The notes under the pieces are model-generated. The model searched no databases and was not told the DNA's origin. It worked only from the letters and a program-made list of their open reading frames with translations. A program made the position numbers and the translations under genes. Shown piece by piece: positions 1,465 to 33,084 of a stretch of 33,084 bases of DNA. This DNA comes from a virus: positions 1-33,084 of the IMG/VR virus record IMGVR_UViG_3300037485_000549. One strand, written 5' to 3'. The stretch's first letter is position 1. Every line of letters starts with the position of its first letter.

Positions 1465-4400
1465 TATATTTCAAGAAGAGGATATATTTTTAGGAATTCG
1501 CCAGAGTGCGGAAAAGACTATTTTATCGTTTCAAGAGATTGATGCGGAGGTTAAAAAACTTGCAGGAAATTTAAAAAAGGACTTGTCAACTGCTGATTTT
1601 GGTAACACTAAAGGCATTAATTCATTTGTAGCAGCAACGCAAAAGGCAAACGATGCAAAGAATAAATCAATACAGATTGATAAGGTACTTGCGCAGGCAA
1701 CAAAAGATGTTATTGCAGCGGATAAAGCACTTGTCGACATTGAAATTAAAAAGCAAAAGTTAGCTCAGGAGCAAATTAAAACTAACAACGCAATAACAAA
1801 AAGCGAAAACGATAAAGCCAAAGCAACACAGAAAGCAGCGCAAGCAAGTAAGGTTGAAATGGACACGTACAAACAACTTGCCGCAAGCACAAGAGACCTT
1901 AAAAACCAAAGTAAGGAGTTAGGCGCTCAAATGTTAGCATCTGAAAAAGCTGGAAGAACTGGAACGGCGGCTTATGCAGCACTTGAAACACAATTTCGTG
2001 AAGTAACCGCAGCGGCTCAGGCTGGAGATGCAGAATTAAAGCAAATTGATAAAACAGTAGGTGATAATTTCAGAAATGTAGGTAATTACGAAGTAGCTAC
2101 AAAAGGTCTTAAACAACAGTTACGCGAAATGACTGTTGCTCTTCAAAATATGGAGTCAACAGACCCACGTTTTAAGCAAATGACAATCGATGCTGGTGAG
2201 CTGAAAGATAAGATAATGGACACAAATGCCGTTATTAAATCCACTGCTGGTAGTGCTGTTGAAAACTTGGGTAACGGTATAGCCAAAGCGGGTAAAGTTG
2301 GTATAGATGCGTTCGCAGGAATGACGGGCGCAATGGGGTTGTTTGGTATTGAATCAGAGGGCGCAATGCAAGCAATGTTAAAGCTTCAACAATTAGCTGC
2401 AATGTCAGAGGCATTGACAAGTTTGGGTTCATTAAAGGATACTATGACGGAAGTCAGAGCTTCATTTGTGGCTGCTGCTTCAAAGTTAGGGCTATTCACT
2501 ACTGCTAAGGTTGTAGATACAACGGTAACGACTACTCAAACGGTGGCTACTGAGGCTGCAACGGTGGCGACAAGTGGACTCGGAAAAGCTATGAAAGCAC
2601 TTCCAATAGTAGCAATTATCGCGGGGATAGCAGCACTTGCATACGGTATTTATAGTTTAGTTAGTGGAAATGAAGAGGCGGAAAAGGCTACAAAAGCGAG
2701 GGCGGAAGCTGAAAAAAGAGCAAACGAAGAATCGAAAAAAACAATTGAATTTGTATCTACAGAAAGTGGAGAATTTTCCGCATTAATTTACCAATTAAAA
2801 GCAACTAACAAAAATAGCGAGGATAGAAGAAAGTTGATTAAACAAATAAACGGAACATACGGAACAACATTAAAAAATCTATCGGACGAAACAGCGTTTC
2901 AATCTTCATTAAATGATGCCGTTCAAGACTATATTGATTTACAATACAATCGTTATAAATTAAAAAAAAATCAAATCTATATTGACCAACAAACAGCAAA
3001 GAAATTTGAAGCTGAATTAAAAATAAATAAGGCACGTGCAGAAGCTCAAGAATTAGTTGATAAAGGGATTTATAGAGGAATACAAGAGGCACTTTCTTAT
3101 AGAGAGGATTTAAGAGAAGAAATTGCGGAAAATCAAAAAGCGGTTGATGACGCAAATGCAGCATTATTAAAATTAGGTGTTAGAAGAGGCTCTTTGAAAG
3201 GTCAGGAAGATGCTTTAACAGAAGGAGGCAAAAAATACATTCCTATCTTAGAGAAAGAAATCAAAGCAACGGGTGATTTAACGAATGAAAATGATAATTT
3301 AATTGTTTCAAATGAAGAGTTAAAAAAGTCTTTATCTGATTTAACAGATGAATATACAAATAGAACGAGCACAGCAGAACAGATACTTTTAGCTGAAAAA
3401 AATGCTGCTGATGAAGAACTTAAAAGGCTTCATTCAATTTCAACTGATTTAATTAACCGAGACCAACAATTAAAAGATGCTTTATTATTAAATGATGCCG
3501 ATTATCAAGCCAAATCATTAGCATTAAAAGAGAATGTAGATGTAACAAATGCAGAAACGAAAGTACTTGACATTCAATTAAAACTTAAAAAAGCAAAAGG
3601 ACTTGAAGCAATTGCACTTGAAATTCAACTACAAAATGCACAATTAAAGTTGTTAAACGAGCAGGAACAAGCGGAACTTTTATCAGTTGGAAATAATGAA
3701 GCCGCTAAAAACAAAATAATAGTTGAATACGCTATTAAACGTGCTGATTTACAAACTGAATTTGCTGATAAATCGTTAAAAGATAACGAAGAGGCGGACA
3801 CAAAAGCACTTGAGCAAAAGGCGAAGAACCAAAAAACGGAAGAGGAAATAGTTAAAGCAGCAGCTGACTTCTTTATTGCACAATCTAATAAAAAGATAGA
3901 GCAAATTGACAAGGAAATTGCAGCGGCAAACGCTCAATATACGACACTTCAAACGCTCGCAGCAAATGGTAATATTAACGCAAAAGAAAGTCTCGCAGAA
4001 CAACAGAGAATCATAAACCAAGCGAATAAACAAAAGGAGAAAGAGTTAAAGAAACAACAAAGAATAGAACTTGCGAGAAATATTTATGCAACTTACAATG
4101 CTAAGGTAGCCGCAAATTCTGAACATCCTTTATTAGACACTATTAAAGATACAATGTTATTACAGCAGTTTATCGCAAGTTTACCTACGTTCTACGATGG
4201 TACTGAGGACACAGGAAAAAATGGTAACGGTATAGATGGAAAGGGCGGTTTTCACGCTGTGTTGCACCCTAACGAACGAGTAATACCAAAGAGTTTAAAC
4301 GAGCAAATCGGAGGCTTATCGAACGAAGCACTTGCAAAGATGGCTAATGAATATCAAAACGGTAAAATAATACGTTCAAATAGTCAAATAGGTAGTTCAT

Positions 4401-4570: not shown

Positions 4571-6285
4571 GACACTTTTTAAATGAAATTGAAATAACAC
4601 CTCGCAACCGTGAAGAAATCGGAGTAATTTCCGACTTTACGGATAACCCCGAAGTGTTAAAAATCAATGTAGACACTATTATTTTACCCCGTGAAGCCTA
4701 TGGAATAGTTCAAGACCATATTGCAACGCTTGGACTTTTTGAGGGCATTCCTTACCGTGTACAGATGGCAAACGGTATAAGTTTGAACTATTATGTTGAC
4801 CTTACAAGTGCGCCAATCTTCCGCAGTTACGAATGTGAGTTGAAAATACTACGTAGACAGTCAGCAGATAAGTTTTTTGAAGATGCGAACGGTACATCCT
4901 TTGAATTGATGCTTAAAAAAGGCGTTGTTTTCCCTCGTTTCAAAGTGCCGTACATCGTTGTAAAAGATAATCAAGCGGAACTTGCTATTAGTTTAGCGTT
5001 GGGTCTTTACTCTATGACAGATGCGCTTATTTCGGCTATTAAAGACTTAGCTACAACGGTCTCAGAGGGCGTTCAAGCGGGAACTCCTTCCGTAGGGGCG
5101 TCTGGTCCCGTAATTGGATTAGGTGACATTATAAGTTATGTGCTTAATATATTAGCGCAAGTTATCTACATTGCAGGATTACTAATTGCAATTACTAATT
5201 TAGGCCTTCAATTATTCAACCTTATTTTTCCAAAAGTTCGCTATTTATTAGGGTGTAAAGTAAAAGATTTAATCGAAAAAGGATGTGAATATTTAGGATT
5301 TACGCTTGATAGTACGCTACTTTCTTCTACTAGTTTTACAGTTTTACCTGTTCCATTGGTTCGAGGTCGTAAAGGAATATTTAAATTCATCTCAGATGAC
5401 TTGGTTGCTCCATTTAATAAGGGTGTTCCGAGTTCAAGCGATACTGTAAGCACGTTAGGGAGTCTTATTACGGCTATTGAAACAACGTTTAACGCACGAA
5501 CAAAGGTAGTTAATGGAGTGGTACAAATCGAAAGACGGGATTTTTGGCAGGATATAACTTCTATGAACGTTGCACCCGCTATGGTTATTCAAGCTGACCG
5601 ACAAGACGAATTTACGTATAACTCAGAGGACGTTTGGAAACGTTATTATATTCATTATTCTTTGGACTCTATGGATTTAAATACAATGGACGAATTATAC
5701 GATATTCATGATGCCGAGTTTTCAACAGAACCCGTAAACATTATTAATGCCGATTTAGTAACGATTAAGGGACTTCAAGACGTTTCACCACCATTTGCAT
5801 TAGGACAACGAAAAGACTCTTTAAATTGGCTTGAAAAGCAAGCGAAGACATTGTTTGAATTAATAGACGAAGTGAGCGGAATGTTTGGAGGTGGCACGAA
5901 TTTAGCAGCTAAAATTGATGCGCGCGTGGGTATTATGATTATTAGCCAAAACTTTTTTTCAGTGACTAAGTTACTTTACACGGTTGCAGGAAAACAGCCC
6001 GCTAATTTCAAGAATTATGTTAGCGCAAGTAGCCTATGGAATAAGTACCATTACATAAATCAAATTCAGCTAAACAGTTGGAAAATTAAAAGTTCAGTTA
6101 GGCTTAGAATTATGGAAGAAGATTTCGTAACTTTGTTGAATAATAATTATGCGGAAATTGGCGGGGTAAATTGTGAGATTCTTCAACTTGAGTGGATTGA
6201 TGAGAAGAGTTTGGCAACTATTACTTATAGAATACCCGATAATTATGCAAGTGGAAAGGTTACAACGCTTACAATTAACTCTTAA
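4567..6285 (+). CDS. Distal tail or baseplate-type protein
   Basis: The 572-residue product directly follows the tape measure with a 4-base ATGA overlap, the usual place for distal tail or tail-tip components. The N terminus is beta-rich without a signal peptide. Residues about 180-222 form a long hydrophobic stretch that could span a membrane twice (SYVLNILAQVIYIAGLL), possibly used in DNA ejection. The remainder alternates beta-like segments with few charged helices. I recognise no catalytic motif. The assignment to the tail tip is inferred from order. Confidence 0.6.
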   Translation: MRHFLNEIEITPRNREEIGVISDFTDNPEVLKINVDTIILPREAYGIVQDHIATLGLFEGIPYRVQMANGISLNYYVDLTSAPIFRSYECELKILRRQSADKFFEDANGTSFELMLKKGVVFPRFKVPYIVVKDNQAELAISLALGLYSMTDALISAIKDLATTVSEGVQAGTPSVGASGPVIGLGDIISYVLNILAQVIYIAGLLIAITNLGLQLFNLIFPKVRYLLGCKVKDLIEKGCEYLGFTLDSTLLSSTSFTVLPVPLVRGRKGIFKFISDDLVAPFNKGVPSSSDTVSTLGSLITAIETTFNARTKVVNGVVQIERRDFWQDITSMNVAPAMVIQADRQDEFTYNSEDVWKRYYIHYSLDSMDLNTMDELYDIHDAEFSTEPVNIINADLVTIKGLQDVSPPFALGQRKDSLNWLEKQAKTLFELIDEVSGMFGGGTNLAAKIDARVGIMIISQNFFSVTKLLYTVAGKQPANFKNYVSASSLWNKYHYINQIQLNSWKIKSSVRLRIMEEDFVTLLNNNYAEIGGVNCEILQLEWIDEKSLATITYRIPDNYASGKVTTLTINS

Positions 6286-13053: not shown

Positions 13054-13103
13054 TTTATCTACGTAGTTCTACTTAGTTTATCTACGTAGTTCTACGTATT
13101 TTT
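13054..13103 (+). terminator. Repeat-built terminator after the lysis genes
   Basis: A 19-bp direct repeat, TTTATCTACGTAGTTCTAC, occurs at 13054-13072 and 13077-13095. The second copy sets up TACGTA (13083-13088), loop GTTC, TACGTA (13093-13098) and a run of five T. This reads as an intrinsic terminator. Because TACGTA is itself palindromic and present three times, the stretch could also bind a dimeric repressor just upstream of the early promoter. Confidence 0.65.
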
Positions 13104-14232: not shown

Positions 14233-14487
14233 ATGACAAAAGAACAGTTTAATTTAACGGTGATAATGTCAATACTTCCAAGTGTTGCCGATAAACTTGA
14301 AGATTTCCCGTTTAGATTCAAAGCGAAACAGCTACAAAACGAGGTTGTGAGAACGATAAGAAACCAGGACAAGTATTTTATGGACATTGCGGATAAGGAA
14401 ACGATAATACAACAGAACGACATTCAGCGAGCGTTTTTAGGGTGGTTAGATGAACAATTTAAAGATATTACAGATGAAACAAATTGA
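14233..14487 (+). CDS. Small early protein
   Basis: The 84-residue product is helical, with an N-terminal hydrophobic part and a charged C terminus. It starts after a 31-base gap without a visible terminator and overlaps the DnaA-like gene by 14 bases. It has no known motif; by position it may work with the replication genes that follow. Confidence 0.65.
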   Translation: MTKEQFNLTVIMSILPSVADKLEDFPFRFKAKQLQNEVVRTIRNQDKYFMDIADKETIIQQNDIQRAFLGWLDEQFKDITDETN

Positions 14488-14863
14488 TTTAAAAAAGGTA
14501 GTTTACATTTGCGAGCGCAATGGAATTTTGAAAGAAACACGCCAAAGAGAAATTGTTTACCAAAGAGCAGCAGCTTATAATTTTGTTAGAAAAAATAATA
14601 AACTTTCACTTGCTGCAATAGGTCAAATATTTAGTAAAAATCACGCAACGATTATTAACGCATTGAGAATGTACGATAATTTTATACAACAAAAAGACGA
14701 AATATTTCTTTGGAATATCAAAAGCATTGAAGCGCAACTAAACAACTGCGAGAAGGTTACGATAGTTTACACTAAACGACCTTTGCCAACTATTCGCAGA
14801 ACGAACAATTTTAGAGCTGCCAGAGTAAAGGTAAAATCAGTTAATTACGAAGATAATAATTAA
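14474..14863 (+). CDS. DnaA domain IV-like DNA-binding protein
   Basis: The start at 14474 (MKQIDLKK) is preferred over 14450 because it shortens the overlap with the previous gene to 14 bases. In this 130-residue product, residues about 30-75 match the C-terminal helix-turn-helix of the replication initiator DnaA: a REIVYQRAAAYNFVR helix, then LSLAAIGQIFSKNHATIINA, equivalent to the DnaA signature G-x-x-F-x-x-x-H-x-T. No AAA+ ATPase is attached. It may bind an origin or DnaA-box-like sites, or compete with host DnaA. The C-terminal tail (about 95-130) is basic. Confidence 0.75.
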   Translation: MKQIDLKKVVYICERNGILKETRQREIVYQRAAAYNFVRKNNKLSLAAIGQIFSKNHATIINALRMYDNFIQQKDEIFLWNIKSIEAQLNNCEKVTIVYTKRPLPTIRRTNNFRAARVKVKSVNYEDNN

Positions 14864-16315: not shown

Positions 16316-16990
16316 ATGGCGGAGGATAAAAAATCATTTGTTTTGTATTCAGACCAACGTTCAATTATTGAAATGCTGCCAGATGATAAGGCAGGAATAC
16401 TATTAAAACATATTTTTGCGTACGTTAATGATGAGAATCCAATCAATAACGACCCTTTGATTATGCTTGCATTTGAACCTATTAAGTTGCAGTTTAAACG
16501 TGATTTAATAAAGTGGTTAGCAACCAAAGAGGGGAGAAGTACAGCGGGAAAAGCAAGCGCAGAAGCTCGAAGATTATTAAAAGAAAGTCAACAAAGTTCA
16601 ACAAATTTAACAAATGTTGATTTTGTTCAACAAGAGTCAACAAATCCAACTGTTAATGTAACTGTTAATGATACTGTAACTGTTAATGTAATAAATAAAA
16701 TAGATTATCAAGCGTTGCTTGAGACATTGAATCTTTCTTTTGGTAGAAGTTTTCAAGTTATTAATAAAAAAGTACGTGCAAGTTATGAAGCTCGTTTAAA
16801 AGAAGGCTATACAAAAGACCAAATAAGAGACGCAATAAATAACTGTAAAATTAATGATTATCTTAAGGAACAAAATTATCAATATTGTACACCCGAATTT
16901 TTTAGTAGAGCCGAAACCTTAGATAAATATTCAAACGTTACAAAAAAAGATAAGGTTATTTATGCATCTCACAATAGAATAATAGACTGA
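16316..16990 (+). CDS. Replication protein, DUF6291 plus Phg_2220_C-like
   Basis: Of 224 residues, about 1-75 match DUF6291 (KSFVLYSDQRSIIEMLPDDKA, then HIFAYVND), a domain of phage replication initiator-like proteins. A Val/Asn/Thr-rich hinge (about 108-127) leads to a C-terminal domain (about 135-210, SFQVINKK, then ARLKEGYTKDQIRDAI and TPEFFSR), which matches the conserved C-terminal region of phage replication proteins (Phg_2220_C). It overlaps the ATPase gene by one base, consistent with an initiator or helicase-loader acting with that protein. Confidence 0.78.
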   Translation: MAEDKKSFVLYSDQRSIIEMLPDDKAGILLKHIFAYVNDENPINNDPLIMLAFEPIKLQFKRDLIKWLATKEGRSTAGKASAEARRLLKESQQSSTNLTNVDFVQQESTNPTVNVTVNDTVTVNVINKIDYQALLETLNLSFGRSFQVINKKVRASYEARLKEGYTKDQIRDAINNCKINDYLKEQNYQYCTPEFFSRAETLDKYSNVTKKDKVIYASHNRIID

Positions 16991-21952: not shown

Positions 21953-22129
21953 ATGACAGCAACAGAATTTTTAATAGAATATTGTGACAGAGAAAATTGG
22001 AGCATTCCAAACAATATACTTGAACAAGCCAAAGAAATGGAGAAAGAGCAGCTGGAAAGTGCTTATTTAGCTGGAGAGGCAAAAGATAAACAATATTACA
22101 ACGAAACCTTTAAAAACACGGAAAAATGA
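21953..22129 (+). CDS. Small hypothetical early protein
   Basis: A 58-residue acidic, helical protein (MTATEFLIEYCDRENWSIPN) with AYLAGEAKDKQYYNETF near its end, a pattern I associate with small Bacteroidota phage proteins of unknown role. It overlaps the HTH gene by four bases (ATGA). Confidence 0.68.
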   Translation: MTATEFLIEYCDRENWSIPNNILEQAKEMEKEQLESAYLAGEAKDKQYYNETFKNTEK

Positions 22130-22353
22130 CAGCAAAACAACTATCTAAAGTAAACAGTTTAGCAAGGGAAATGATACAACTCCATTTACTCACTGAGAAT
22201 ATTACCTTAGCGAAGTTTTCACGAGATGCGGGACTTAGTCAAAATCAAATTTGGCTGTATTTAAACGCTGAAAACACGAGTAAAGGACTTCACACGACAA
22301 CCCTGGAGAAAATCGGCAAATATCTTTTAGATTATGAAAATAGCAATATTTAA
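22126..22353 (+). CDS. Small helix-turn-helix DNA-binding protein
   Basis: The 75-residue product has a single XRE-like HTH at residues about 25-60: ITLAKFSRDAGLSQNQIWLYL then GLHTTTLEKIGKYL, the usual arrangement with a second helix-turn-helix half. It probably acts as a transcription regulator. It is the closest recognisable DNA-binding gene to the palindrome array at 22722-23007, so it is the first candidate to bind there, though this is inference. It overlaps the next gene by 20 bases. Confidence 0.72.
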   Translation: MTAKQLSKVNSLAREMIQLHLLTENITLAKFSRDAGLSQNQIWLYLNAENTSKGLHTTTLEKIGKYLLDYENSNI

Positions 22354-22543: not shown

Positions 22544-22555
22544 ATTATAACTATC

Positions 22556-22591
22556 GTATAGGCGGTCGTTTTTCAATGCCGCTTATACTTT
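22556..22591 (+). terminator. Hairpin at the start of the non-coding region
   Basis: GTATAGGCGG (22556-22565) pairs over 10 bp with one G-U with CCGCTTATAC (22579-22588), loop 13 nt. Only TTTG follows, so termination may be partial. Its right arm plus the next bases reads TTATACTTTG, the same motif as the palindrome array further on. Confidence 0.5.
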
Positions 22592-22650
22592 GTTATGAAA
22601 AAAACTACAAAAATCAAATTGCTTTTGATAATTTGAGAAAATAGAAAAAA

Positions 22651-22699
22651 CGACACGCTACAACCCACTGTTTATGGGCATCTTGAAAAGTGAATTTTT
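22651..22699. repeat. Left flanking element of the palindrome array
   Basis: This stretch contains CCCA-CTGTTTA-TGGG, a short palindrome, and aligns at roughly 70% with 23009-23058 through the shared pattern CGA-ACGCT, TGTTTAT and GAATTT. The two related elements stand at both edges of the ACTTT/AAAGT array. Function unknown; an origin or recombination-site role is possible. Confidence 0.5.
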
Positions 22700-22721
22700 G
22701 GTTTTTACAAAGTATATTAGT

Positions 22722-23007
22722 GAAGTTTACACTTTGGTTTTTCACTTTGTAAATTTGAAAGTGTTTTATAAAAGATAGTGCTTTGCTTTTTTACTTTAAG
22801 AAATCAAAAGTCAATTTCAAAAGTCAATACTTTGGTTTTATACTTTGTAAAAGTAAAAGTCATTTTGTAAAGTGTATGCTTTGAATTTATACTTTCAAAA
22901 TTGAAAAGTGTTTTTATAAAGTGGAGAAGTGAAGTGCATACTTTCAATTTATACTTTCGTTTTTTCAAAGTGGTTGAGCAAAGTTTATACTTTGAAATAA
23001 AAACTTT
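22722..23007. repeat. Array of 49-bp palindromic units made of ACTTT/AAAGT boxes
   Basis: ACTTT (or GCTTT) boxes start at 22731/22744, 22780/22793, 22829/22842, 22878/22891, 22940/22953 and 22989. AAAGT boxes start at 22758/22771, 22807/22820, 22856/22869, 22905/22918 and 22967/22980. Within a unit the offsets are always 0, 13, 27 and 40, and the next unit begins at 49. The fourth unit is longer by exactly 13 bp and carries one extra GAAGT at 22931. Each unit is a 45-bp inverted repeat with a 4-nt joint, and the joints give AAAGTnnnnACTTT palindromes. Only the boxes are conserved. It is likely an ordered protein-binding array (origin, partition or packaging site). Confidence 0.85.
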
Positions 23008-23008
23008 T

Positions 23009-23058
23009 CGAACGCTCTGAAACGCCATGTTTATAGGGGTTTTAAAAATGGAATTTAG
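23009..23058. repeat. Right flanking element of the palindrome array
   Basis: This element is related to 22651-22699. It holds AAAC-G-CC and GG-G-GTTT arms around ATGTTTATA, an imperfect palindrome. It runs into the start of the next gene, which is one reason to prefer ATG 23048 over ATG 23027. Confidence 0.5.
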
Positions 23059-23380
23059 CAAAAGTAAAAAGCAATTTGATTTTTTAATAAAAAGTATTAT
23101 CTTTCGAAAAAAACACGTGGAAAAATGCGTTAAATATCTTAATGGAATACCAACCGAAGAGTGGATAGCAACGATTATAACACTCAAAAATACGGAAGCC
23201 TTGATAGGATATTCAATAGGGTACAAGACAGACGTAATACCAGCAATATGCGTACAGCGGTCAATCAACATCTGGAACTTAAAGAAAGAACTACGAAAAC
23301 ACGAAATAGGAATATTAAAGACTCAGAGCATAGGGCATTTGCATTATATTTATTTTTTACGACATTCATTAGAAAATTAA
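23048..23380 (+). CDS. Hypothetical protein downstream of the palindrome array
   Basis: The 110-residue product (start MEFSKSKKQF) is basic and helical, with a central EEWIATIITLKNTEALIGY segment and a Lys/Arg-rich C terminus. No known domain is seen. It directly follows the array, and such neighbours often encode the protein that binds it, so DNA binding is a possible role. The alternative start at 23027 would add seven residues. No -strand gene is needed to explain this region. Confidence 0.6.
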   Translation: MEFSKSKKQFDFLIKSIIFRKKHVEKCVKYLNGIPTEEWIATIITLKNTEALIGYSIGYKTDVIPAICVQRSINIWNLKKELRKHEIGILKTQSIGHLHYIYFLRHSLEN

Positions 23381-23701: not shown

Positions 23702-23866
23702 ATGGGGTTGAATAAGAATCCAATAGGCTTAGGCGACACAGTAGAAAACATACTTGAAAGCACAGGAATAGCAAAGGTTGTTAAAAGTGTTATTAAAACG
23801 TGTAATTGTGGCAAAAGAAAGGATTTATTGAATAAAATAGTACCGTACAGAAACACGAAGAAATGA
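23702..23866 (+). CDS. Small CxC-motif protein
   Basis: The 54-residue product (MGLNKNPIGLGDTVENILES) contains TCNCGKRKDLLNK near residues 34-46. This short Cys-x-Cys motif with a basic tail recurs in small proteins of Bacteroidota phages. It may bind metal or nucleic acid. It overlaps the methyltransferase start by four bases (ATGA). Confidence 0.68.
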   Translation: MGLNKNPIGLGDTVENILESTGIAKVVKSVIKTCNCGKRKDLLNKIVPYRNTKK

Positions 23867-25131
23867 TAACACAAAAAGTAAATATAAAGGAAGTAATACC
23901 GAACAAGTCAAATCCCAGAATTATTCGAGATTCAAAGTTTGTCAAATTAGTTCAATCAATCAAAGATTTTCCGCAAATGTTGGAAATACGTCCGATAGTT
24001 GTTGATGAAAATAATATCATTCTTGGTGGAAATATGCGTTTTAAGGCGTGTATTGAGGCTGGATTGAAGGAAGTATTCATAATCAAAGCAAACGACCTTA
24101 CAGAAGAACAAAAACACGAATTCATAGTAAAAGATAATGTTGGTTTTGGAGAATGGGATTGGGATATATTAGCGAATGAGTGGAACACCGAAAAATTACA
24201 AGATTGGGGTTTAGACTTGCCTTTAGATTTAAGCGTTGAAGAACTCGAAGCAGAAGAAGATAATTACGAAATACCAAACGAGATAAACACGGACATCGTT
24301 TTAGGAGATTTAATAGAGATAGGAGAACATAGGTTACTTTGTGGAGATAGTACTGATAGCGATTCAGTAGCTAAATTAATGAACGGAGAAAAATGGGATT
24401 TAATGGCAACTTCACCACCGTACAATCAAGGAAATAGTTATGGTAATTTATTACACACAAAAGGACTTGGCACAGGCAAAAAAGATGTTAAATTATATGA
24501 AGATAAAAATTCAGATAACAGAAGTTCAGAAGACTATTTTAAATTTTGCATAGACATATTAACAACATCATCAATATTTAAAAATGAAAACGAGCATACA
24601 GTATGTTGGAATGTAGCATATAATGCAAAAAGCAGAAACGATTACGGAAAAATAATATTTTCAATTGATAATCCATTTGAAGTAAAAGAAACAATAATAT
24701 GGGATAAAACACATTCAATAAATTTACCACAAGTTGGTATTTATTCAAGAAGGTGTGAGTTTGTTTTTGTAATGAGTTCAAATGAAAAATATCATACAAG
24801 TCAAACATATAATGATTGCAGGTGGAATTATTGGCAAATTAAAAGTGCAGGTTCACAAATTACAGGAGAGGAAGTTGAACATAGAGCAGCCTATCCAATA
24901 GAATTTGCATCTAAAATGGTAAATGATTTTTCACTGCAAAATGATTTAATTTATGAACCATTTACTGGTTCTGGCACTACTATGGTCGCATCGCACCAAC
25001 TGAAACGCAAATGTTACGGAATGGAATTAGACCCAAAGTATTGCGATGTAATAGTTAAACGAATGATTAAATTAGATGAAACATTGACTATTAAATTAAA
25101 TGGAGTTGATGTTACAAAAGATTGGAAATAA
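23863..25131 (+). CDS. ParB-like domain fused to a DNA methyltransferase
   Basis: The 422-residue product has an N-terminal ParB-like domain (about 1-110) with IRPIVVDENNIILGGNMRFKA. A methyltransferase follows, with motif IV TSPPY at residues 183-187 and motif I FTGSGTT at 367-373, followed by MELDPKYCDV. This motif order (IV before I) is the beta class of N4-cytosine or N6-adenine enzymes. It probably modifies phage DNA to avoid restriction; the ParB part may give specificity. The target base and site cannot be read from sequence. Confidence 0.85.
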   Translation: MITQKVNIKEVIPNKSNPRIIRDSKFVKLVQSIKDFPQMLEIRPIVVDENNIILGGNMRFKACIEAGLKEVFIIKANDLTEEQKHEFIVKDNVGFGEWDWDILANEWNTEKLQDWGLDLPLDLSVEELEAEEDNYEIPNEINTDIVLGDLIEIGEHRLLCGDSTDSDSVAKLMNGEKWDLMATSPPYNQGNSYGNLLHTKGLGTGKKDVKLYEDKNSDNRSSEDYFKFCIDILTTSSIFKNENEHTVCWNVAYNAKSRNDYGKIIFSIDNPFEVKETIIWDKTHSINLPQVGIYSRRCEFVFVMSSNEKYHTSQTYNDCRWNYWQIKSAGSQITGEEVEHRAAYPIEFASKMVNDFSLQNDLIYEPFTGSGTTMVASHQLKRKCYGMELDPKYCDVIVKRMIKLDETLTIKLNGVDVTKDWK

Positions 25132-32081: not shown

Positions 32082-32987
32082 ATGAGTATAGGATGTAATT
32101 GCGCAAGTGGATTAAGTAATACAGGGAGACCTAATTGCGTAAGTCTTCAAAGCGTAACAAGTAAATTAATAATGGTTCCTTTATTTGGAGCTGATGGAAC
32201 GGCAAATTTTATCGATTTGACTTCACCACTTCCAACTTGGAGTGATTTAATCAATGAAGCAGACGATACAAAGCGTTGGTTTCCATTACCAAACTTTGAG
32301 AATGTAGAGCTTCCAAAGGCGGATAGCCAATTTGAAGAGGCTAACAGTGGTCGTATGGTATTTTTACGTCAAGGTAAGCGTTCATTCGCTGGTGAATTAT
32401 GGGCAGAAGATTCAACTCCTACATTGTTAGGTAAGTTACAAAACAATCGTTGTGTTGATTTCGGTGTTTATATCGTTGATGTAAATGGTAATTTAGTAGG
32501 TTCAAAAGTAGGCGATAGATTATATCCAATCGCTGTTGATAATCCTTCATTTAATCCAACATTCACATTTGCAACTGATTCAACAACGCAAAAAATTATG
32601 TTAGGATTTGACTTCGACAGATTATTTGATGAGTCTACAATGTACATGATAACGCCAACTGAAGCTGGAATCAATTTCAATGATTTAACAGGTCTTATTG
32701 ATGTTAATTTGACTGATTTAACTGTTGTTGCAACAAGTGTAACGTTTGATGCTGTATTGGATTATGGAACGGCTTTGAACCCTATTAAATTTAGTGGTGC
32801 AATTTCTGCTGATTTCGCTTTGTATAACAATACAACCTCTGCAACGGTATCTGTGACGGCTGTTGAAAACTTACCTTTAGAAGGTAATTACACACTTACT
32901 TATATTGCTCAGACTGCTGCTGATTCTTTGACTTTGTCAATAGTTAAAACAGGGTTTGATGGTGAAGTAAGTTATTTGGCTGTATAA
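32082..32987 (+). CDS. Major tail (tube) protein candidate with Ig-like C terminus
   Basis: The 301-residue product has a Cys-rich N terminus (MSIGCNCASGLSNTG), a tube-like body (about 20-185) and a C-terminal Thr/Val-rich domain (about 195-301) with Ig-like character. Place between neck and tape measure, size and a following small coupled gene fit a tail-tube protein of a long-tailed phage. The C-terminal part is present twice in the window because of the terminal redundancy; the copies differ by one Leu/Ile exchange. Confidence 0.72.
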   Translation: MSIGCNCASGLSNTGRPNCVSLQSVTSKLIMVPLFGADGTANFIDLTSPLPTWSDLINEADDTKRWFPLPNFENVELPKADSQFEEANSGRMVFLRQGKRSFAGELWAEDSTPTLLGKLQNNRCVDFGVYIVDVNGNLVGSKVGDRLYPIAVDNPSFNPTFTFATDSTTQKIMLGFDFDRLFDESTMYMITPTEAGINFNDLTGLIDVNLTDLTVVATSVTFDAVLDYGTALNPIKFSGAISADFALYNNTTSATVSVTAVENLPLEGNYTLTYIAQTAADSLTLSIVKTGFDGEVSYLAV

Positions 32988-33084
32988 TGTTTGTCGAAGC
33001 TGGAAAAATACAATTTGCTGTTATTCATTTAACTGACAAATCGTTAAAAGAGGCTCAGTTGCTGTTTAAACACGTTAACCCTTT
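32631..33084. repeat. Right copy of the 454-bp terminal redundancy
   Basis: This is the second copy of bases 1-454. It covers the last third of the tail-tube candidate and the first 98 bases of the following small gene. If the circle is closed, position 33084 continues at 455. The sequence cannot show whether the virion DNA is truly terminally redundant (headful packaging) or whether the overlap comes only from the assembler. Confidence 0.93.
32987..33084 (+). CDS. Start of the small gene after the tail-tube candidate (partial)
   Basis: The first 32 codons of the 53-residue gene seen whole at 357-518; the window ends inside it. Its ATG overlaps the preceding stop by one base. Confidence 0.7.
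   Translation, partial: MFVEAGKIQFAVIHLTDKSLKEAQLLFKHVNP

Follow-up and report, generated by a model that had tools for sequence, protein, structure and literature searches.

An accessory, gene-free element in a tailed-phage genome carries an ordered array of short boxes, and comparison with related phages indicates that the boxes are held by selection while the spacers between them drift almost neutrally. The array is very probably, on the evidence of this sequence pattern, a cooperative protein-binding site. Our favored reading, to which we give a probability of roughly 0.4, is that it is an accessory cis-acting binding array that would serve as operator or enhancer of the operon beginning at position 23108 and is passed as a block between phages.

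The stretch of DNA analyzed here (the window) is 33,084 bases long. Its ends, 1-454 and 32631-33084, overlap by 454 bp at 97.6% identity, and the window is therefore probably the genome of a tailed phage, close to complete, in which the join varies between strains. It encodes a terminase, a portal protein, a major head protein, an ERF annealing protein and an exonuclease, together with an SSB-like protein, NinG, a DnaA-domain-IV protein and a replication-initiation-like protein. A tandem 23-bp repeat of CTACGTAG palindromes is located at 13054-13102 and is also present in G001, G003 and G004.

An ordered lattice of palindromic boxes

The array (22709-23007) consists of ACTTT boxes and their reverse complement AAAGT, arranged on a 13-14-13-9 lattice with a period of 49 bp. 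Five units start at 22731, 22780, 22829, 22878 and 22940, each with boxes at offsets +0, +13, +27 and +40; 17 of the 20 unit boxes are perfect and the remaining three have one-base mismatches. The preliminary description had recognized an ordered 49-bp box array at 22722-23007, with one unit stretched by 13 bp to accommodate an extra box, in the only long non-coding region. That pattern is present in the interval given, and its true start lies earlier, at an AAAGT at 22709 that is followed by GAAGT at 22722. The right end is formed by boxes at 22989 and 23003, with a spacing of 14 instead of 13. It is the fourth unit that is 13 bp longer, and the added box is an imperfect GAAGT at 22931. No other gap between plus-strand open reading frames in the window reaches 250 bp.

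The lattice is far beyond what shuffled sequence produces. Against 2000 first-order Markov shuffles, which approximate the dinucleotide content, the region contains 22 boxes (shuffle mean 4.6) and seven box pairs at a single spacing (at most three in shuffles), so that the excess of spacing, for which a shuffle check had been proposed, is absent from all of the shuffled sequences. The 49-bp period was also called independently by TRF. A period of 49 bp corresponds to about 4.67 helical turns, which suggests that the boxes may wind around the DNA. The regular period is explicable by tandem duplication alone; the resistance to mutation of four boxes per unit is not.

Boxes diverge less than spacers

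Between the window and its homolog in contig L001, 4 of 120 bases in lattice boxes (3.3%) are changed, compared with 41 of 165 in spacers (24.8%; Fisher p=3e-7), and this contrast is gone when the lattice is slid by three or more bases. Third codon positions of the neighboring genes differ at 20-38% between the same two sequences; spacer divergence is close to this value, and the array is therefore not simply young. The contrast agrees with the original proposal of selection on box spacing, the behavior of a multi-protein binding site, and extends it to the boxes themselves. Within the units examined, all 22 boxes of the inner pair ACTTT-N9-AAAGT, a 19-bp palindrome, are perfect, compared with 17 of 22 outer boxes (p=0.048). 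The most constrained part of the element comprises the last unit and the right flank (22940-23026), where 2 of 87 bases differ from L001 (P=2e-11 against an expectation of 30%). Conservation thus climbs toward the end of the element that bears a promoter-like site, and recent exchange could be a partial cause of it.

The palindromic boxes also give the region a propensity to fold, and the array might instead act as RNA, with ACUUU/AAAGU pairings that bind a protein or form long double-stranded RNA. In the window the plus strand folds with z = -7.0 relative to shuffles and the minus strand with z = -4.1. However, such folding arises from palindromic boxes alone, the z values for L001 and L010 are only about -3 to -4 on both strands, and no Rfam family matches above threshold. 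An RNA function is made less likely by the fact that L001 and L010 adopt other folds in place of the single long hairpin predicted for the window, and we regard it as very unlikely.

Distribution and block exchange

The protein encoded downstream of the array is found at 29 IMG/VR loci, four of which (L001, L002, L010 and L011) possess the array, with six, six, four and six units, respectively, compared with five in the window. The same box spacing, which the preliminary description proposed to seek in related phages, is therefore present in four other IMG/VR contigs, where the 13-bp extra step and the array ends are identical to those of the window. The collections hold only three independent versions of the array, and across these three lineages (five, six and four units) the lattice and the extra step are the same while copy number varies by whole units. 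Scans of IMG/VR with the exact four-box lattice, a relaxed six-box lattice, an alternative phase and the right flank recovered the same four contigs only. In GTDB genomes the exact four-box lattice has one isolated match, a single unit without repetition in a Bacteroidia MAG, which is apparently due to chance. No homologous DNA was detected in GenBank phages or PLSDB plasmids, no analogous arrays built on other words were detected in TerL relatives, and the array-less genomes contain almost no paired boxes. Promoter style, attC resemblance and protein families all point to a Bacteroidota host, and the carriers of the array appear to be a few uncultured Bacteroidota-type phages.

Left flank, array and right flank together form an accessory non-coding element (22596-23095) that relatives either have as a whole or lack. 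Many proteins of G003 are 95-100% identical to those of the window, yet G003 has no array at the site, and other array-less relatives exist with proteins up to 97-99% identical. The remaining relatives carry small ORFs and attC-like hairpins at the array site, or nothing at all. L001 and L010 possess near-identical elements between unrelated left flanks and right flanks that are about 66% identical, a pattern indicating that the element has recently been exchanged as a block between divergent phages. The breakpoints of the exchange coincide with an attC-like hairpin and with TATCTTTCG, and array-less relatives have both. Homologous exchange through these conserved borders would be the simplest account, perhaps aided by the phage ERF protein.

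The hairpin at the left border (22548-22595, plus strand) has TAAC...GTTA ends and a covarying stem, in which 99.3% of cells are paired and three pairs show compensatory changes among relatives. A single-strand hairpin with AAC/GTT ends and a covarying stem is what an attC site would present. The TTATACTTTG at 22584-22593, initially taken as an extension of the array, is the 3' arm of this hairpin and is also found in array-less relatives, where the hairpin is retained. No integron integrase gene was recognized among the genes scanned in the window. Sites of the attC type have already been described in phages, including a Polaribacter phage (PMC9892861).

Between the HTH gene and the packaging operon lies a cassette hot spot made up of attC-like hairpins and the small ORFs that they flank, with examples at 22548-22595 of the window, L006:3666-4035, L005:4500-5119, L007:4650-5761 and L009:5450-5989. 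In L010 the hot spot (L010:2465-5574) extends over 3.1 kb from the HTH gene to the array and includes approximately seven small ORFs, e.g., 2738-3064 and 5124-5576. A 62-aa coiled-coil-like ORF takes the place of the array in L006 (4036-4260), L007 (5760-5990), L013, L014 and L024, and the direct TCAATTTATT copies on either side of it suggest a separate small insertion.

The array is also flanked by an inverted repeat, the left arm of which (22609-22626, plus strand) is an 18-bp perfect match to the right arm (23067-23084, minus strand) and has one mismatch in L001. An imperfect direct repeat, compared by eye, lies closer to the array, with a left copy ACGCT...TGTTTATGGG... at 22656-22693 and a right copy ACGCT...TGTTTATAGGGG... 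at 23011-23050, both on the plus strand; the exact pattern of the right copy is confined to the same four contigs. A small non-autonomous mobile element, with inverted-repeat ends and with boxes recognized by a transposase or recombinase provided in trans, would account for the 18-bp terminal-type repeats, which are of the kind found in MITEs, for the lack of genes, and for the presence/absence pattern and transfer between divergent phages. It is nevertheless improbable, as all five known copies occupy one identical site and none is found elsewhere in IMG/VR, whereas a MITE would be expected at multiple sites; there is no evident target-site duplication, and the ends of the exchange match conserved border sequences, as predicted for homologous exchange.

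A promoter-like site and operon adjoin the array

Immediately to the right of the array is a promoter-like site of the Bacteroidota type, TTTG-N19-TATCTTTC (23075-23105, plus strand), the sole plus-strand match of this form in the window. Its TTTG lies within the right arm of the inverted repeat, and the spacing from TTTG to TATCTTTC is preserved in L001 and L010. Compared with TAnnTTTG, the flavobacterial promoter consensus (PMC9723704), TATCTTTC has a mismatch at the last base. A second candidate -7 box, TATACTTTG inside the array, was rejected as it has three bases between TA and TTTG.

The first downstream gene (23108-23380, plus strand) was given a GTG start, since L001 and L010 lack the ATG codons of 23027 and 23048 but conserve GTG 23108. 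A protein had previously been assigned to 23048-23380; the open reading frame stands and its start is more likely the GTG. Should the transcript begin at the usual distance from the promoter, the leader before this codon would be nearly nil. The 23108 protein has no Pfam or PHROG match, and its AlphaFold model (mean pLDDT 55) is too poor for use. The operon continues to the methyltransferase, terminase and portal genes. Array-less relatives manage to express the same operon, often with almost no gap behind the upstream gene, which speaks against the regulatory reading. Its methyltransferase gene (23863-25131) encodes a ParB-like N-terminal domain fused to an N6/N4 DNA methyltransferase and is highly variable between close relatives.

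According to the favored model, a DNA-binding protein, probably a dimer, would bind the ACTTT/AAAGT boxes cooperatively, anchored by the 19-bp palindrome ACTTT-N9-AAAGT of each unit, and would coat about 300 bp. The bound array would then set the activity of the predicted promoter, which reads into the 23108 operon toward the methyltransferase, terminase and portal genes, and the whole module would pass from phage to phage, with homologous exchange at its conserved borders as the simplest route. We favor a regulatory role because the element adjoins the only plus-strand promoter-like match, and because the TTTG lies within the inverted-repeat arm, its spacing is kept and conservation rises toward the site. 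As an operator array, the element combines observed selection on its boxes with an adjoining putative promoter recognized by sequence match.

The position upstream of the terminase genes could also be that of a packaging site, and ordered arrays of short boxes are a typical trait of plasmid centromeres. A packaging or partition site was among the functions originally suggested, together with a replication origin. The small terminase gene is, however, 2.1 kb from the array, and close relatives with a 96% identical terminase lack it; among TerL relatives at 70-97% identity, only the known array contigs have an array. Neither a ParA, ParM or TubZ-like gene nor the adjacent NTPase and adaptor genes of a centromere were recognized among the proteins scanned, a set covering part of the small ORFs. 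A partition or packaging site is highly improbable.

Candidate binding proteins

A replication origin of the iteron type, in which an initiator dimer would bind the 19-bp palindromes and open AT-rich DNA like lambda O, is suggested by analogy. The repeated 19-bp inverted repeats, the AT-rich DNA and the variable copy number resemble the iterons of lambda O, imperfect inverted repeats of 19 bp that number four in lambda and six in Stx phages (PMC7466680). We nevertheless consider an origin quite unlikely. The array is absent from phages with nearly the same genome, and its presence does not track an initiator, helicase or DnaA-like gene: G005, which is array-less, shares the initiator-like gene 16316 (91%), and G001, which has the array, lacks it. 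This gene moreover holds its own repeat cluster. The cumulative GC skew of the window is monotonic and uninformative on the origin. Being dispensable and without a link to initiator, partition or terminase genes, the array fits poorly with the original suggestion of an origin, partition or packaging site.

Lambda-type origins lie within the initiator gene, and the CAACAAA/TTTGTTG cluster at 16588-16650, inside the replication-initiation-like gene (16316-16990), is plausibly such an origin. A CAACAAA-like cluster is also present in one G005 piece (L043, 10261). The phage protein at 14450-14863 has a DnaA domain IV (Bac_DnaA_C) and is undetected in array-bearing G006.

Among candidate binders, only the HTH_26 protein of the Cro/C1 type (22126-22353, plus strand) is both clearly a sequence-specific DNA-binding protein and found in every array-bearing contig covering its region. 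Its recognition-helix region is similar in both phage lineages, and in L010 a distance of 3.3 kb separates its gene from the array. The preliminary description had named this protein and the unknown protein at 23048-23380 as the nearest candidate binders, a proposal weakened by the finding that both are equally common in array-less phages. As array-less phages have HTH_26 and almost no paired boxes, the binder could equally well come from the host. The DNA methyltransferase was dropped as a reader of the boxes, its gene being only 43% identical in array-bearing G001. Gene-content comparison revealed no gene restricted to array-bearing phages, and the binder would therefore be a core phage or host protein.

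A host protein could also be the target of a decoy or sponge, in which the array regulates nothing nearby and instead titrates a host regulator, a defense protein, or the DNA-binding protein of a competing phage or plasmid. In favor of a decoy, the element is accessory, is exchanged as a block, contains no gene and has no phage gene as its dedicated partner, and it sits in a hot spot that holds small cargo genes in relatives. A decoy could lie anywhere, whereas the element invariably occupies one border, and its strongest conservation is directional, toward 23108; nor did the scans yield a candidate host target, the exact four-box lattice being absent from GTDB save for the one isolated match. 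A decoy thus appears unlikely. Somewhat speculatively, the exchanged lattice might assemble a filament-like complex of host protein and DNA, a portable control strip or decoy that would be open to any phage, as no partner gene is needed.

Accessory phage modules are usually described as genes. The element described here is an accessory module free of genes, in which the geometry for protein docking appears to be preserved while the rest drifts, and which has moved between phages that differ in the genes around it. Should the array be read by a core phage or host protein, regulatory or decoy DNA would prove to be cargo that phages trade, and the lattice would offer a means of assaying a new DNA-binding protein of Bacteroidota that acts cooperatively.

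Comparison with known systems

Under the favored operator or enhancer reading, one parallel is with cooperative multi-site phage operators bound by repressor dimers, which similarly place palindromic sites beside a promoter, here a promoter-like site, with a Cro/C1-type HTH gene nearby. The array differs from them in having far more sites (about 24) and a strict 13-14-13-9 lattice, and in that its neighboring HTH gene also occurs where such sites are absent. The likeness to the lambda O iterons of ori-lambda and Stx phages is limited to repeat form, AT-richness and copy number, as the array lies outside the initiator gene, has four alternating boxes per 49-bp unit, is dispensable in close relatives and has no matching initiator. 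The border and hot spot resemble the attC sites and CALINs of phages (PMC9892861) in the TAAC...GTTA ends and covarying stem of the hairpin and in the small ORFs that relatives hold between such hairpins at the array spot; the likeness does not extend to the box array, the right end of the element has no attC, and no integrase gene was recognized. The origin iterons of the PLE satellite bound by RepA (PMC8263062) are likewise non-coding, semi-palindromic repeats recognized by a protein, and PLE replicons show the same modular exchange and rearrangement of whole repeats, but the PLE's own RepA covaries with its iterons, whereas no gene covaries with the array.
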